DNA of 64,000 nt, from the NCBI RefSeq assembly GCF_012295525.1, contig NZ_CP051167.1, forward strand, positions 124,001 through 188,000. Reading direction: 5' to 3'. The notes beneath the pieces were generated by a model that was not told where the DNA came from, made no database searches, and was given only the letters and a program-made list of their open reading frames with translations. The DNA is from Oxynema aestuarii AP17 (GTDB taxonomy: Bacteria; Cyanobacteriota; Cyanobacteriia; Cyanobacteriales; Laspinemataceae). Position 1 is the first letter of the stretch. Each line of letters starts with the position of its first letter. The translations under genes were made by a program, and so were the position numbers. Below are positions 15,971 to 22,508 of this stretch, one piece after another.

Positions 15971-17113
15971 GTGAAAGGCTTTAAGACCAAGCTAGACTTA
16001 AATAACCGACAACGAACGCTGATGGCGAAACACGCAGGAGTTGCTCGACACGCTTGGAATTGGGGACTCGCTACCTGTAAGGAAACATTAGAAGCCGGAG
16101 GTAAACTGCCAACCGCCATAGACTTACACAAAAGATGAGTCGCCGAGGTGAAAAGTCAGAATCCTTGGTACTATGAAGTCTCTAAATGTAGCCCTCAAGA
16201 AGCGTTGCGAAACCTAAATAAAGCGTTTAAGCGAGTTGGGCAAGTCAACGGAACAGGTTTTCCCAAGTTTAAGAAAAAGAAGGTCAAAGATAGTTTTTAC
16301 CTGGAAGGAAGCATTAAAGTTTCCGGTGATTGGGTGAAGCTACCTCGGATCGCTTGGGTAAAAAGCCACGAACAGTTACCGCCAGTCCATCCTAAAAACG
16401 TCACCATAAGTAAACGAGCAGGGGACTGGTATATTGCCTTCAAAATTGATTTTGAACCATCCCCCCAACCCCCCTTTGAAAGGGGGGCGAAGGGGGGATA
16501 GAGAGCGGATTGGGGTAGATGTAGGAATTAAAACTCTCGCCACTCTGAGCGATAGTAAAACCTATCCCAATCCGAAAGCTTATCGTCAGGCTCAGAAAAA
16601 ACTAGCCAAACTCCAGAAAGAACTAAGTTGCCGTCAAAAAGGAGGTAAAAACCGAGAAAAAACGCAACTCAAGTTAGCTAAGACCCACCGACGCATCGCC
16701 GATATTAGAGCCGACCATCTACACAAGTTAACAACTTACTTAGCCAAGAACCACGGCGAAGTAAAAAGTGAAAAGTGAAAAGTGAAAAGGGGAAAGGGGA
16801 AATTGAAGACTTAAATGTGTCAGGGATGCTCAAAAATCACAAGCTGGCTGGTGCGATTGCGGATGGTGGGTTTTATCAATTCCGGTTTTATCAATTCCGT
16901 CGTCAGCTTGAGTATAAATGCGAGTGGTACGGGAGCAAATTAACGCTGATTGACCCGTGGTATCCCAGTTCGCAGATCTGTTCCAACTGCGGACACCAAC
17001 AAAAAATGCCCCTGGACAAAAGACAGTATGATTGTCCGAGCTGTCACGTCTCCATAGATCGTGACTTAAATGCGGCAATTAATTTGGAAAACGCGGAGAG
17101 TTCAGCCGTGTAA
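15971..17113 (+). pseudogene. tnpB: Decayed tnpB (IS200/IS605-type RNA-guided nuclease)
   Basis: Three consecutive frames together spell a TnpB: helical N-terminus (from GTG 15971, VKGFKTKLDLNN, GVARHAWNWGLATC), FPKFKKKKVKDSFYL, RuvC-I GVDVGIKTLATLSD, RuvC-II IEDLNVSGM, zinc finger CSNCGHQQ...CPSC and RuvC-III DRDLNAAINLENA. The catalytic Asp, Glu and Asp are still present. Damage: an in-frame TGA at 16136-16138; a 41-bp palindromic element at 16459-16499 that shifts frame just before RuvC-I; a purine tract with three AAAAGTG units (16764-16784) before RuvC-II that shifts frame again; and a 15-bp tandem duplication (16869-16898, FYQFRFYQFR). No tnpA is present. It cannot make full-length protein. 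The segment after the stop (17114-17190) is where a guide-RNA end would lie. Confidence 0.9.
16459..16499 (+). repeat. 41-bp C/G-run palindromic element, copy 1 (inside tnpB remnant)
   Basis: Imperfect palindrome: ATCCCCCC, AA, CCCCCCTTT, centre G, AAAGGGGGG, CGAA, GGGGGGAT. It reads as Pro/Gly-rich text in the tnpB frame and ends in a stop. The exact reverse complement occurs at 42147-42187 in the second tnpB, and a 40-bp form at 47994-48033. Confidence 0.95.
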
Positions 17114-17377: not shown

Positions 17378-17867
17378 TCACCTACCTGGAGCCAAAGATC
17401 GCCGCCAACTGGAACGATTGCGCCGTTTTGTTCCCCCCGAGTCTTCGCCCCGAACCCCCCCGGCGATCGCCACCCAGTTGACGCCGATGCAAGAGCGGCA
17501 AGTGCAGCGCCTGCGCTCGTTCGTCCCACCGAGGCGATACGGCTTCCCCGTCGCCGAGCGATCGCCGCGACCGCGCCCCCGTCGTTCCCGTCCGTCGGTG
17601 ATGTTGCACCTGTTGGTCCACCACGGTTGGGTGTACTGGACCGGGTTGTGGGTGGCGTGCGTGCTGAGTGCGGCGGTGGCGGCGGCGATGTTGATTAATC
17701 CCCGTTTTACCGAACCGACGGCTGGGGCGATCGCTCCGAGTCCGGTGGAAACCCAGCAGGATTTACCGCCGTGGCTGTTCGGGGCGATCGCCGTCGGTTG
17801 TGCGGGCGGTTCCTTGGTCGTCTCCCGATGGTTGCAGGGAAACGACCCGTCGCGATCGGGTTCTTAA
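17313..17867 (+). CDS. Small membrane protein, basic N-terminus, two membrane segments
   Basis: GTG start with AAGGAGAGG about 7 bases upstream, a good ribosome site. 184 residues. The first ~95 residues are very basic and Pro/Arg-rich and contain an internal repeat: RRQLERLRRFVPPE (about 31-44) and ERQVQRLRSFVPPR (about 61-74). Two hydrophobic segments follow, VYWTGLWVACVLSAAVAAAML (about 110-130) and WLFGAIAVGCAGGSLVVS (about 155-172). This suggests a cytoplasmic basic tail on an inner-membrane protein. No family is recognised. Its stop overlaps that of the convergent CHAT gene (TTAA, 17864-17867). A dispersed repeat element has contributed residues near position 15-22. Confidence 0.65.
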   Translation: MYSRSVKPLKTSVRSVGAIRQSHLPGAKDRRQLERLRRFVPPESSPRTPPAIATQLTPMQERQVQRLRSFVPPRRYGFPVAERSPRPRPRRSRPSVMLHLLVHHGWVYWTGLWVACVLSAAVAAAMLINPRFTEPTAGAIAPSPVETQQDLPPWLFGAIAVGCAGGSLVVSRWLQGNDPSRSGS

Positions 17868-20428
17868 TTCCCCGGGTTGGCTGCCGCTTTCTGTTGCAAT
17901 TGCAACAGCGATCGCCAATCTTGCACCGCTTGTTCCGGCCACATCCAATTTTTCCCGAGAGCGTCCGGCTGGAAGGCCGTAGGCTGTGTAGACAGGATAT
18001 ATTGACGCTGTTCTATAGCCTGACTCAACCGCTTCTCTTGGTGGGGTAGCGATTGAGTTCGGGCTAATTTCATCTCTACTAACGCCAACCCGGCATAAGC
18101 GGTGAGGGCTTCGGGACTTTCTAAGGGAGCGGTTATCGCCCCGGTTGCCGTCAAAGCGACGGTCGGCTGACCCCCTTGGTTAACCGGGGTGGTGTCCACG
18201 GGTGAGCTTTTAAGGGACTTGAGCGCTTCAAACCAATTGCTCTGCGCCTGTTGGAGTTGGCCGTCGGCATAGTACGCAAAGGCTAAAGCATTACGATAAA
18301 CCGGGGATTGAGGTTGTTGTTCCACGGCCCGTTGCCAATAACGGCGCACGTCGTCCAAGCTGTATTTGGAATCGCCCACGTGCAACGACTGCCACGCCAG
18401 ACGACCGCGCAGGAAGTTGATCCCCGGTTGGTCTTGTTGCTCGGACGGTACCCCGGCTAAGACGGCGCTGGCATGAACGAGGGCGCTGCGTTCGGGTTTG
18501 AGCAGTTCCTCGATCGCCGCTTGAGCCTCCAACACTTGACCCCGATTGAACTGCTCGATCGCCAATCCGGCGATGTCCCCACTCGGTGCAGTAGAGAGGT
18601 TGGCTTGCACCAATTCCGGGGAGAAGTGTTGGGGTAAGTCGAGCTGTTCGTAGGGGAGGAACTCGCCCGGTTGCGGTTCGCTGCCATTCCCCTGTTTGTA
18701 GGCAGTCCAGCCCCCGACCAGGGCGATCGCCAGCACCCCCAACGAGGCGATCGTGGCAACCCCTTTCGACTTCCAAAACGAAGGCTGGCACCCGCGCCAA
18801 GAGAGTGCGGGACGCGGGCGCTTTGGCTCCGGTTCCTTCGGCGTTGGCGCCGGAGCGACTGCGGCAGCTTTCCCCTCACTACCGGAAACGACGGCAATTT
18901 CCCGAAATAAATTCTGGATGTCGGCGGCGGATTCGTCGTCCTCTTTGGCCAGATCCCGATACACCGCTTCTAAATCTTCCTCTTCTTCCAGTTCGAGATC
19001 GGCGTCGTCGTATTCTGGGGGCGCCAGCTCGTCGCGATCGTCCTCGTCTTTCAAGACCAGCCCGGACATCGGTGGTGAGGTTACCTCCTCGGGGGTCTTT
19101 CTTGCCGCCGTTGGTCGTTTTTTGAGAGGCTCATCGCTTCCCGTGGTCTCGCTGCCGTTCTGGGAGACCAGATAGCCGTCAAACTCGGGATGCAGGTACA
19201 GCACGGGCAAGGCCCAATACAGTTGGCCGGAACCGTAGGTCGAGATCAACCCCTGTCGCGCCCGATTCAGACTCAAATCGACGGGATAACCTTGTTTGAT
19301 ATTGCGATAGAACAAGCGGGTCAAAATCAGGGCAACGTTATCGGGAATCCGTTCCGCCATCGCCAAGACGCCGGGAATGCCGCGCCGGACGAGGACTTCG
19401 GCGAGGGTGCGCCCTTCGCTGCCGTTGCCGAGTTCTAAGTCGGTGGCACTGTGGGATCCCCGACAGGAGTTGAAGACGGCCATGCGAATGCCGTTGTTGA
19501 CCAGCAATCCGGCTAAGTCGTCCCCGCTTAAAAATTCGGTCAAGCCTGTTTTATCGTTGACGAGGTAAAGTTGTCCCCCACCTGCGGCGACGGTGCTATG
19601 TCCGGAGTAGTGAAAGACTTGATATTGGTTTTGTTCTAAAGCTTGGGTGAGTTTTTCCCGATTCGGTTGTTCTAATAGGGTCAGCTCGATTTTTGGCGGT
19701 TTGCCCCGTCCGGGGGTGCCGCCGCGCCACTGTTTTTGCAATTCCTCGCGCAGGTGCATGGCTTCTTGTTTGAGCGCGAGGTTGTCGCGGTCGGTCGGCG
19801 CCGAGAGTACCATTAAGATTCTCAAGGGTTCTCCCGTGGGATGGGGGAGATTGAGAGAGGCGCAGTTGGGTTGATAGCGCGAAAAGACGATATCTTTCCC
19901 GGTGGCGATCGGTCGGAGGTCTTCGTGGAGGACTTCCCACGGCAGACGCGGCAGTTTGTCCCCTTTGACGCCCAAGCGCAATCGCAACAGGTTGCCTCGG
20001 TTGTGAGCGATCGCCTGGGCGTTACTGAGGCGATCGCGCAAGCTACCTTGAAACAATTGCTCGTACAATTGCTGCCCGAAATCGACGAGGTTGGGCGATA
20101 CTCCTGGGGAGTCGCTACGCGATTCTCCTGGGGAGACGCTTCGCGATCGCCCCATCCCGGAGATCGAGGGGTATCCCTCTGATTGTCCCCCTCGGACGTT
20201 TCGCGTCGATCGCTTTTCCCTCACCGGACCGACGACCCCGCGCCGCAGCAAGCCGACGAGGGGATCGTCCATCAGGTAGGCGGCTTCTTGCAACCATTGT
20301 TCTACAGGCCAGATCACTTGTTCTTCAGCCGGAAGCACGCCTTTGGGCGAGTGTTCCGTGCGGACTAAAAATCGATCCTCCCCGAACGGGGTTACGGAAA
20401 TATGTAATTCCTCAAATTGATGGGTCAC
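17864..20428 (-). CDS. Membrane-anchored CHAT (caspase-like) protease with C-terminal TPR region
   Basis: 854 residues from GTG 20428 (VTHQFEELHISVTPFGEDRF), chosen because AGGAG lies about 11 bases upstream and CHAT proteins of this type begin this way; the frame is open 23 codons further. The CHAT domain spans about residues 110-440. The catalytic His is in FHYSGHST (about H277) and the Cys in VFNSCRGSHS (about C322), the dyad of caspase/separase-like peptidases. An acidic, low-complexity stretch (DDADLELEEEEDLEAVYRDL) follows, then one membrane segment VATIASLGVLAIALVGGW (about 590-607), then about 240 residues with TPR-like helices. The CHAT domain is therefore predicted cytoplasmic with the TPR part outside. 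A 24-bp repeat is inserted in frame in the linker before the CHAT domain. The substrate is unknown. Confidence 0.85.
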   Translation of the reverse strand: MTHQFEELHISVTPFGEDRFLVRTEHSPKGVLPAEEQVIWPVEQWLQEAAYLMDDPLVGLLRRGVVGPVREKRSTRNVRGGQSEGYPSISGMGRSRSVSPGESRSDSPGVSPNLVDFGQQLYEQLFQGSLRDRLSNAQAIAHNRGNLLRLRLGVKGDKLPRLPWEVLHEDLRPIATGKDIVFSRYQPNCASLNLPHPTGEPLRILMVLSAPTDRDNLALKQEAMHLREELQKQWRGGTPGRGKPPKIELTLLEQPNREKLTQALEQNQYQVFHYSGHSTVAAGGGQLYLVNDKTGLTEFLSGDDLAGLLVNNGIRMAVFNSCRGSHSATDLELGNGSEGRTLAEVLVRRGIPGVLAMAERIPDNVALILTRLFYRNIKQGYPVDLSLNRARQGLISTYGSGQLYWALPVLYLHPEFDGYLVSQNGSETTGSDEPLKKRPTAARKTPEEVTSPPMSGLVLKDEDDRDELAPPEYDDADLELEEEEDLEAVYRDLAKEDDESAADIQNLFREIAVVSGSEGKAAAVAPAPTPKEPEPKRPRPALSWRGCQPSFWKSKGVATIASLGVLAIALVGGWTAYKQGNGSEPQPGEFLPYEQLDLPQHFSPELVQANLSTAPSGDIAGLAIEQFNRGQVLEAQAAIEELLKPERSALVHASAVLAGVPSEQQDQPGINFLRGRLAWQSLHVGDSKYSLDDVRRYWQRAVEQQPQSPVYRNALAFAYYADGQLQQAQSNWFEALKSLKSSPVDTTPVNQGGQPTVALTATGAITAPLESPEALTAYAGLALVEMKLARTQSLPHQEKRLSQAIEQRQYILSTQPTAFQPDALGKNWMWPEQAVQDWRSLLQLQQKAAANPGN
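20102..20149. repeat. Two tandem 24-bp repeats inside the CHAT gene
   Basis: Units 20102-20125 and 20126-20149 both start TCCTGGGGAG and run to CGCGAT, the second ending in HIP1. They resemble a dispersed element and encode the Ser/Arg/Pro-rich text RSRSVSPGESRSDSPGVS on the minus strand. Because 48 is a multiple of 3 the frame is kept. Confidence 0.8.
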
Positions 20429-21210
20429 AGCTTTACTGCACTCCTGCTCGCTCCTCAAATGGTCTTGGGTTCGTTCGCACCCCGAATCGATATTCACTCC
20501 GAAATCTGTTGCTCGACGTCGATCGTGACCTGTCCGATCTGTGTATTAATTATTGTCTACACCCCGAACGTGAGAATTTTCTGAGTCGGCCAGTTCTCAA
20601 ACAGACCTCTGGTGCCTTCGCACGGCGACGCCGGAGGCGCATCGCGGTACCGTCGCTCCAGTTCTGTCGTTTTCGATTCGTAGATGTTTTTTTGGCAAGG
20701 GGTTCGACTGAGCCGTCGATCGCCCGGGTTTGAAGTTTTAAATCGTCATATCCCCGACGACAATTTTACCCTCGTCTCCCTGAATTTCTCTTCTCGAAGG
20801 ACGGCCATTCGATGACTTGGTATTTAAGAGGCTGATTTCCTCCTTTTCTCCCTCCAAAAGTTGGGAAGTTCGCGGGTTTACCTTTTCTTTCTTTGTAAGA
20901 AGATCGGGTTACTGTTCGTTCCCTTCGGAGGAGTTAGGTTGGCAAGGTGCTGGGTTTTTGAGAACCTCGATTGCACCTTCTCGATCTTCAGACGCATTCG
21001 TGCTGAAAAAGTTACCGGAAAAGGAAAATTTTTTCACCATAACCTTATTCACGAACGGCTTGCCTGACGATCCGGATGGCAACAGATCTCGATTGAATTG
21101 TCTGATTTCTTGAAGTTTTTGCGATCGCCCCTTTCGGGTCATGGTTTCGGGAAATAGCAAATCAGTTGGCGAACTTTCCGGATTGAGCGATGAGTTATCG
21201 AAAGGTGAAA

Positions 21211-21265
21211 TGGTAGATGCACCCTGATTGACGTTCCCCGGCTCCTCTGAGTCGGGTTTTTTTTT
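21211..21265 (+). ncRNA. Candidate small RNA, module 1, with intrinsic terminator
   Basis: The core TGGTAGATGCACC is followed by CTGATTGACGTT, then a terminator hairpin CCCGGCTC (21237-21244), 4-nt loop, GAGTCGGG (21249-21256) and nine T. The core and the bases after the T-tract (TTTTGCC) are shared with modules 2 and 3, while the hairpin sequence differs but keeps pairing. No reading frame is conserved. It is not recognised as Yfr1, 6S or another named cyanobacterial RNA. Confidence 0.6.
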
Positions 21266-21399
21266 GCCCTCTCGGATGCGGTTCGGGTGCGATCGCCGTT
21301 CGTTTTCCTCTCTATCTTGGAAAATATCGACGATCGCTAACGGACTTAAAAAAGTTTCCGATACTCCGGATCGAGTTCTCTTTTAAAAGAACTCTGTAG

Positions 21400-21454
21400 T
21401 GGTAGATGCACCTTGATTCATCTTCCCGGCTCCTGGGGTGCCGGGTTTTTTTTT
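21400..21454 (+). ncRNA. Candidate small RNA, module 2, with intrinsic terminator
   Basis: Core TGGTAGATGCACC followed by TTGATTCATCTT, then hairpin CCCGGC (21425-21430), 9-nt loop, GCCGGG (21440-21445) and nine T. Directly upstream, GAGTTCT-N8-AGAACTC forms a second hairpin that might be an operator or part of a longer transcript. It sits 189 bp downstream of module 1 in the same orientation. Confidence 0.6.
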
Positions 21455-21506
21455 GCCATATCAAAAGCCCGATGTCAGGCTGTGTTCCTCCGCGAGGGCG
21501 CATTCA

Positions 21507-21530
21507 CCCTAACTGACGTTTCCCAGATTC
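21507..21530 (+). repeat. Decayed fourth copy of the small-RNA core
   Basis: TTCACCCTAACTGACGTTTC matches the module core GCACCCTGATTGACGTTTTC at most positions, but the TGGTAGAT start is missing and no terminator hairpin or T-tract follows. It is probably a dead copy. Confidence 0.4.
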
Positions 21531-21807
21531 CATGCACCCATGATTTGTTCGAGTTTTAACACACCCTGGGCAGACGCTCCTAGCACCCTTGTATCCACCC
21601 CTAGGATTCGATGAGGAATGTTGTGATTCCTCGGTAGACGGCTAGATTCAACTCGGTTCTTTCTTCTCTTGCGGCGCCGACGAGGATCGCTTGCACCCCG
21701 CTCTATACCCTTGCTGACGCCTTACAGAACTGCTTCGAGGGATCTAGCTAGCCGCTATTCTAGCAGCAAATTTTCCGGATCGGGTAGTCCAGTTGAGTAG
21801 ATTACAG

Positions 21808-21861
21808 TGGTAGATGCACCCTGATTGACGTTTTCCGGCTCGCGAGAGCCGGATTTTTTTT
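21808..21861 (+). ncRNA. Candidate small RNA, module 3, with intrinsic terminator
   Basis: Core TGGTAGATGCACC followed by CTGATTGACGTTTT, then a perfect hairpin CCGGCTC (21835-21841), loop GCGA, GAGCCGG (21846-21852), one A and eight T. A TAGATT at 21798-21803 is placed as a -10 would be for a transcript starting near 21810. It has the strongest terminator of the three. Confidence 0.6.
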
Positions 21862-22382
21862 GCCCGAAATTCTTCGTTTTTACTGGGGCTAAAAAGATGG
21901 AAAGGATCGTGGCGATCGCGCCTATTTACTCGCTTTCTTTCCGCGCGATCGCCCGGCTCTAAGATGAGGGATTTAAAACGGTCTCAAGCCGATTGAAACT
22001 CGCTCGAATTTGGCAAACATTTAAACCTGTTTCGCTGTCGCGATCGCCGCCCTTACTGCCGCTCTTTCTAACGGCATGTTAGGGCGTCCTGACGAGATGA
22101 AAAGACTTCCCCCACGCCGGATCGCGTTTCTCGTTGTCGTAGCTAACTCTGCCCCTTTACAGAGATTTTTAAGCTGGTCGATCGGAACAATTTTGACGGA
22201 AATAAACTCGGGCGATCGCGTGCCACTCTCCCATTTGGCTACCTTCTTTCGCAACGCGATCGCTCCCGTCGCGGTCAACTCACAAACTGAACGATTTCTG
22301 GGTTTTTTGTTTGCCCCACGAATGAGGGGTCTAACCCCTCAGCGAACGCCGATCTAAAATGGCTGGAAAATGAGGAAAGGCG

Positions 22383-22508
22383 ATGAAACTTTGGATGTCC
22401 CAAAATTTAACAAAACTACTACGCTGGTTCCTCACGATCCTCGCCGTCGGACTGCTGGCGTGGCTGTGGATTTTACTGGGCGCCACTCCGGCGATCGCCT
22501 GCGGTTGA
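22383..22508 (+). CDS. Possible 41-residue secreted or membrane peptide
   Basis: ATG 22383 follows GAGGAAAGG (22372-22380), a strong ribosome site. The peptide is a textbook signal sequence and almost nothing else: basic start (KLLRW), long hydrophobic core (FLTILAVGLLAWLWILLG), a cleavage-like ATPAIA and then CG before TGA. It may be a single-pass small membrane protein, or the remaining N-terminus of a lost secreted protein. Its last 36 bases overlap, antisense, the 3' end of the GDSL hydrolase gene. Confidence 0.45.
   Translation: MKLWMSQNLTKLLRWFLTILAVGLLAWLWILLGATPAIACG

Follow-up and report, generated by a model that had tools for sequence, protein, structure and literature searches.

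NsiR1 is described as a heterocyst-specific small RNA. In Nostoc (Anabaena) sp. PCC 7120, 12 NsiR1 copies lie upstream of hetF, point away from it and have DIF1 promoters (PMC9045159, PMC8406250). It has been reported that NsiR1 acts on hetF and alr3234 in Nostoc, NsiR1.1 being antisense to the hetF 5′ UTR and NsiR1.4 acting in trans on alr3234 (PMC9045159). Transcription of hetF in Nostoc begins at −256, within nsiR1.2, and an altered nsiR1.1 promoter led to little change in hetF reporter expression (PMC8406250). HetF takes part in cell division and also influences the levels of HetR (PMC8406250; PMC9045159). DIF1 promoters need hetZ (PMC7377430) and in Anabaena are dependent, by way of HetZ, on HetR, and GGGN5CCC is the base requirement in HetR–DNA crystal structures (PMC4192349, PMC4649674); a GGGN5CCC site upstream of hetR has been found dispensable for hetR upregulation. 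NsiR1 in a non-heterocystous species has already been published, for Limnospira indica (PMC8400943).

A short array of such RNAs is present in a 64-kb stretch of the genome of Oxynema aestuarii AP17; this whole stretch is called the window here, and its features are listed in window coordinates.

17864..20497, minus strand: HetF homologue (CHAT-domain protein); NF045509 CellDiv_HetF, E = 7.5e-226, 752 bits; CHAT PF12770
21177..21182, plus strand: copy 1, DIF1 box (TCCGGA), 34 nt 5′ of the core
21211..21265, plus strand: nsiR1 copy 1 (core, hairpin, T-tract); RF02399, 51.2 bits
21237..21265, plus strand: copy 1, terminator with a stem of 8 pairs and nine T
21365..21370, plus strand: copy 2, DIF1 box (TCCGGA), 35 nt 5′ of the core
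21400..21454, plus strand: nsiR1 copy 2; RF02399, 49.2 bits; terminator-like site
21774..21779, plus strand: copy 3, DIF1 box (TCCGGA), 34 nt 5′ of the core
21808..21861, plus strand: nsiR1 copy 3; RF02399, 47.4 bits; 8-pair terminator

The initial annotation placed three modules at 21211–21265, 21400–21454 and 21808–21861, and these limits are identical to the Rfam boundaries. It did not recognise their core as a named cyanobacterial RNA family, which was wrong: the Rfam search returned NsiR1 (RF02399) at 47–51 bits, against a cut-off of 39 bits, with the modules aligned end to end to positions 1–60 of the covariance model. Matches to two other Rfam families, GadY and anti-hemB, were far under their cut-offs and were rejected. 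The core TGGTAGATGCACCNTGATTNA occurs three times in the window (≤2 mismatches) and never in 100 dinucleotide shuffles, which upholds the shared core described earlier, and the copies form one 68-nt direct-repeat family with spacings of 189 and 408 nt, copies 2 and 3 being 74% identical to copy 1. TCCGGA stands 34–35 nt 5′ of the core in all three copies and in none of the shuffles, while a promoter scan found no GGGN5CCC 5′ of these copies. Each module has its own terminator, as annotated, with a hairpin followed by 8–9 T; the stem has 8 pairs in copy 1, 5 (scan) or 6+2 (fold) in copy 2, and 8 in copy 3. No ORF of at least 50 aa is common to the three modules, in agreement with the earlier remark that there is no conserved reading frame, and the description of multi-copy small RNAs with individual terminators is borne out at the sequence level; the TCCGGA boxes, the Rfam match, the adjacent HetF homologue and the further genomic copies are absent from that annotation. 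The annotation also suggested a constant unpaired segment that regulates mRNAs: the regulatory part agrees with NsiR1 of Nostoc (PMC9045159), but the core is predicted to be only mostly unpaired (unpaired fractions of 0.7, 0.6 and 0.67 in copies 1, 2 and 3), five core bases of copy 2 being drawn into a stem in its fold. The mostly unpaired 5′ part of the RNAs is predicted to be UAGAUGCACCCUGAU.

Judged by the covariance match, the modules are NsiR1 small RNAs (RF02399) of about 55 nt each in a short array upstream of hetF. They add to a family already known, although the host is unexpected. HetF is the only strong NCBIfam match of the gene at 17864–20497, at 752 bits, which is below the curated equivalog cut-off of 1200. 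The true start of hetF is likely the GTG at 20428, as suggested by the onset of the HetF profile match; upstream from this GTG, the distance to the first base of copy 1 is 783 nt, and the array is divergent and transcribed away from hetF. Among 60 other genomes with loci examined, 24 have a hetF homologue next to an NsiR1 locus, most of the loci having only about 1.5 kb of flank. The array shares with NsiR1 of PCC 7120 the core, the 3′ terminator, the length of about 55–60 nt, the DIF1 box at −35 and the tandem arrangement upstream of and opposite to hetF. It differs in having 3 copies in the window instead of 12, in the 783 nt to the likely hetF start, in a genome without nif genes, and in the presence of a second, five-copy array and dispersed copies.

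The AP17 genome is a single 6.36-Mb contig with 12 RF02399 copies, 11 of them over the cut-off; the exception, one of the nine copies outside the window, scores 38.0 bits, just under 39. Besides the three window copies, there are five in the second array at 4618900–4619499, three of them identical, and four singletons. TCCGGA is found at −32 to −36 in 8/8 array copies and in 0/4 singletons; three singletons carry GGGN5CCC, none of them near gatB, and the fourth, at genome position 1349506, carries neither promoter motif. In addition, a divergent NsiR1-like RNA lies between gatB and argJ (locus 3993315–3997409, core at 3995365 on the minus strand), in which the operator is present, the seed start is changed (AAAGATGCACCC) and the RF02399 score is only 26.8 bits. 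HetR is encoded in AP17 (NF009718, 603 bits against a cut-off of 489), whereas profile searches of the genome found neither nifH (best 219.6 bits, cut-off 394; this match is probably to the related chlL) nor nifD (best 47 bits against 654). Since both genes are absent, AP17 is expected to be unable to fix nitrogen and can have no need of heterocysts for that purpose; with HetR present and nitrogenase genes missing, the array cannot serve nitrogen-fixing heterocysts. NsiR1 in a non-heterocystous, non-fixing cyanobacterium has its closest parallel in Limnospira indica PCC 8005, whose NsiR1-like RNA162 differs in being one 57-nt RNA in radiation transcriptomes, with hetF context and promoter classes not discussed in the part of that article available (PMC8400943).

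A survey of 386 cyanobacterial genomes gave NsiR1 over the RF02399 cut-off in 80 and the HetR C-terminal domain in 80, with 78 genomes common to both, counts that ignore relatedness among genomes, so that Fisher values for the overlap do not stand for independent events. The mismatches are G229 and G308, which have NsiR1 without detected HetR, and G058 and G083, which have a divergent HetR and weak NsiR1. At E ≤ 0.001, RF02399 matches 95 genomes; the 15 with sub-cut-off matches only were left out of the count because an E. coli control also matches under the cut-off. nifH was found in 59/386 genomes, a figure too low for family f6, which we infer to be the heterocystous family: 13 NsiR1-bearing members of f6 gave no nifH match, yet nifD is present in 13/13 (11 over cut-off, 2 in pieces), so that the nifH run overlooked nif in each of them. 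As the nifH survey is unreliable for f6, nifD was relied on for nifH-less genomes outside it. Outside f6 there are 38 NsiR1-bearing genomes, 23 of which lack nifH; a nifD search of these 23 gave no credible match in 22 (at best 55.6 bits, or no match) and fragments of nif genes in G116. These 22 belong to several families and more than one order, and HetR is present in 20 of them. NsiR1 follows HetR, not nitrogen fixation, across the phylum. The association resembles the HetR–PatX pairing of filamentous cyanobacteria, in which the partner occurs wherever HetR does, heterocysts or not (Elhai and Khudyakov 2018, cited in PMC11298460), and differs in that the partner there is an RG(S/T)GR peptide and here an RNA (PMC11298460). 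Within the family of AP17, HetR is present in 13/14 members, AP17 included, the exception being G229. This genome has an NsiR1 array and operator-bearing copies (L129, L131, L132, L133, L224), from which HetR was predicted; the prediction failed, HetR being found neither by domain search nor by protein search (0/8 genomes, run without a positive control). G229 is a 320-contig draft, and HetR may possibly be missing through an assembly gap.

These counts bear on the possibility that a heterocyst-forming ancestor lost its heterocysts and left the NsiR1 array behind to decay. The nitrogenase genes are indeed absent from AP17, its copy at 1349506 has neither promoter motif, and the HetR-less G308 keeps one copy that also has neither; nevertheless, such a relic is very improbable, given that the core, terminator and DIF1 box are kept in 8/8 AP17 array copies and that 22/38 NsiR1 genomes outside f6 lack nifH and credible nifD, 20/22 of them with HetR. 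Spread over several families and more than one order, this pattern is wider and better preserved than many separate relics would lead one to expect.

The NsiR1 copies compared fall into two promoter classes. For this comparison, 97 distinct copies whose core is near-exact were drawn from 29 genomes, all but one of these lying outside f6. The copies came from chosen RF02399 hits, with isolated ones preferred and the three window copies excluded; the invariance of the core in this set is partly a product of that selection. TCCGGA is present in 49/97 copies and a close variant in 22/97 (15 TCCTGA, 4 TCCGGG, 3 TCCCGA), at about −35, while 20/97 carry GGGN5CCC in place of the DIF1 box and 0/97 carry both motifs, all 71 DIF1 or DIF1-like copies being without GGGN5CCC. 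Neither motif is found in 6/97, four of them in the HetR-less G095, G237, G308 and G312 and two in the HetR-bearing AP17 and G027. The background frequency of GGGN5CCC is 0.7% (156 of 21358 windows drawn from the same loci). The second class resembles the hetP HetR operator GAGGGGTCTAACCCCTC (PMC4192349) in having GGGN5CCC near −38, and differs in that its product would be a small RNA, for which the available text of that article names no such operator. On the simplest reading of the sequences, there would be two arms, a DIF1 class under HetZ and a GGGN5CCC class under HetR directly; the dispensable GGGN5CCC site upstream of hetR calls for caution here.

In predicted folds, the median share of core bases left unpaired is 0.72 for DIF1-type and 0.79 for operator-type copies. 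In none of the 20 operator copies are the first three bases xGG, which rules out the complete GGU/ACC hairpin of the Rfam model there, and most operator copies keep TAGATGCACCCTG. The predicted unpaired core favours a pairing seed over a structural role, short of proof. Hairpins at −6 kcal/mol or lower occur in 64/68 DIF1-type and 71/74 operator-type distinct copies, with mean energies of −14.0 and −12.9 compared with −5.3 and −4.7 in shuffles.

The operator class was followed across the survey with R1, a sequence model of 19 operator-class copies; because the operator is part of R1, matches that have it are favoured, and the RF02399-derived set of 97 copies is less biased. R1 matches 89/386 genomes, namely all 80 with HetR, G229 and eight without HetR, the best match in G064 being weak (E 1.1e-4). 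Among the 70 HetR-bearing genomes scored for the operator, GGGN5CCC is exact in 55 and has 5/6 bases in 15, all of them in f6. The other 10/80 fell outside the scripted scoring: by eye, the operator is exact in G030, G103, G153 and G286 and imperfect in G101, G199, G251 and G284, and G064 and G149 were left out altogether. In the HetR-negative G005, G095, G237, G253, G308 and G312, ≤3/6 operator bases are left and the RNA core is intact. The core is altered, by eye, in at least six R1 matches (the AP17 gatB–argJ copy, G030, G048, G153, G284, G286). gatB, argJ or both adjoin an operator-class copy in 24 genomes, AP17 included, many stretches being too short to tell; among 54 loci of this class or akin to it that span 1,000 nt or more, some places being counted twice, neither gene is found at 27, including the three AP17 operator singletons.

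As many copies lie just downstream of gatB and GGGN5CCC is an inverted repeat, the motif might be a gatB terminator or a chance GC repeat rather than a HetR operator, and G229, which has the sites and in which HetR was not found, would agree with this. We regard it as unlikely. A four-T run follows within 10 nt in only 1/75 distinct copies, and the operator starts at −38 in 48/75 and at −40 to −29 in the rest, including the three AP17 copies away from gatB. A chance origin is opposed by the 0.7% background, by the absence of the motif from all 71 DIF1 or DIF1-like copies and by its erosion to ≤3/6 bases in the six HetR-negative genomes examined, and GGGN5CCC is what HetR requires in the crystal structures (PMC4192349, PMC4649674).

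The initial annotation had named, as a case against itself, a core belonging to a mobile element with no RNA. Multiplicity, dispersal and the three identical copies of the second AP17 array are what a mobile or repetitive element without RNA function would give. It has next to no probability: the position beside hetF and gatB is kept across families (hetF in the 24 of 60 genomes above), every window copy has a promoter box, co-occurrence with HetR is close, and the hairpins vary in sequence yet stay stable.

Divergent position beside hetF, in AP17 and in many genomes, together with the antisense relation of NsiR1.1 to the hetF 5′ UTR in Nostoc (PMC9045159), raises the possibility that transcription opposing the hetF leader is the sole action of the array and that the core sequence is incidental. 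This has little probability, for the same core is found far from hetF, in the second array and singletons of AP17 and at gatB/argJ loci elsewhere, and NsiR1.4 acts in trans on alr3234 in Nostoc (PMC9045159). Furthermore, 783 nt separate copy 1 from the likely hetF start of AP17, compared with a Nostoc transcript start at −256; only a hetF leader of uncommon length could be overlapped in antisense, and such overlap is doubtful in AP17. For pairing in trans, the best predicted duplexes of copies 1, 2 and 3 with the hetF leader were equalled by 2, 0 and 4 of 60 mononucleotide shuffles, respectively, that of copy 2 lying about 500–580 nt upstream of the hetF start; the predicted duplexes are modestly better than shuffles, which is weak evidence. 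The hetR leader of AP17 also contains a site complementary to the seed at 12/14 bases and ending at −32 from the start codon. Across 42 hetR leaders, its own included, p is about 0.01 or below (200 mononucleotide shuffles per leader) only in AP17, G170 and G172, and hetR was rejected as a conserved target; the AP17 site is not conserved and is probably a chance match. Genome-wide, the 14-base complement of the seed with ≤2 mismatches gave 33 matches, 13 of which are NsiR1-family copies themselves; the remaining 20 sites are near chance, the reversed pattern giving 17. We claim no NsiR1 target in AP17.

Taken together, we favour, with a probability of about 0.8, the reading that the window array consists of copies each with its own DIF1 promoter and terminator, whose 5′ seed lowers the translation of mRNAs within an older HetR circuit tuning HetF. 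In this circuit, which in AP17 would probably act under nitrogen stress, nitrogen shortage would raise HetR, which would act via HetZ on the DIF1 promoters, and operator-class promoters would be switched on by HetR directly. Each window copy would be transcribed from its own DIF1 promoter and ended at its own terminator; both classes would yield RNAs of about 50–55 nt, the shared seed of which may pair with mRNAs and block their translation. By analogy with Nostoc, hetF would be the likeliest neighbouring target, the circuit tuning HetF and other genes, and since HetF affects HetR levels, the array would close a feedback loop. The small response of the Nostoc hetF reporter to an altered nsiR1.1 promoter (PMC8406250) speaks against this, as do, for the reading as a whole, the partly folded core of copy 2 and the sub-cut-off HetF score.

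In a wider reading, to which we lean only slightly, NsiR1 would belong as one arm to an ancestral RNA family under HetR control, older than heterocysts and independent of them, with a HetZ/DIF1 arm in arrays at hetF and a HetR-direct GGGN5CCC arm at gatB–argJ and dispersed loci that have the seed and mRNAs in common. The operator is lost where HetR is lost, G229 excepted, among the genomes examined. If true, this would provide, to our knowledge, the first RNA directly switched on by HetR and a conserved readout of HetR action in filaments without heterocysts. In species that form no heterocysts, the roles of hetR and patX have been said to 'remain a mystery'; deletions of both genes exist in Leptolyngbya sp. 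BL0902 (PMC11298460). The sharing of NsiR1 and HetR (78 genomes, 80 each) and the class with predicted HetR operators in 80/80 HetR-bearing genomes sampled, non-fixers included in both cases, would offer a simple readout for the role of HetR in non-heterocystous filaments, and this wider pattern of promoter class and HetR is the part worth following. It also raises the question of which mRNAs NsiR1 represses in a filament unable to make heterocysts. The HetR-operator class of NsiR1 is not described in the literature searched, whose scope, often partial text, lies outside the founding NsiR1 papers (Ionescu 2010, Muro-Pastor 2014, Brenes-Alvarez 2019 and 2020). Within that scope, the main text of the HetR ChIP-seq paper does not mention argJ, gatB or nsiR1, the only item on HetR with argJ is an antisense table mentioning argJ2, and the core letters of NsiR1 gave no match. 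The newness of the class is provisional, as the founding papers may describe the gatB–argJ copy or NsiR1 outside heterocystous species.

Several minor observations concern the surroundings of these RNAs. In L012, L014, L093 and L123, a similar TGTAAAG-TTTTGTTAA-like stretch lies further upstream of the operator; it resembles an RpaB box and is possibly the site of a second regulator. HetR-less genomes (genus g23 and G005; loci L072, L074, L075, L223 and L222) retain one RNA with an intact core and terminator and neither promoter motif. In the window, an exact 17-bp hetP-type HetR site, GAGGGGTCTAACCCCTC, is present at 22324–22340 on the plus strand, its 13-base inner pattern being expected 0.07 times per window. 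It is followed on the 3′ side by a 41-codon ORF at 22383–22508 (plus strand) with, by eye, a ribosome-site-like stretch and a signal-peptide-like sequence ending ATPAIACG; this ORF has no NCBIfam match and no relative among the loci of other genomes examined. A PatX-type frame with a C-terminal RG(S/T/N)GR was found neither in the window nor in the AP17 loci examined, the one match, L083, being in another genome. At 16775–17113 on the plus strand, the window also contains a fragment that, by eye, resembles the zinc-finger end of a TnpB-type transposon protein.
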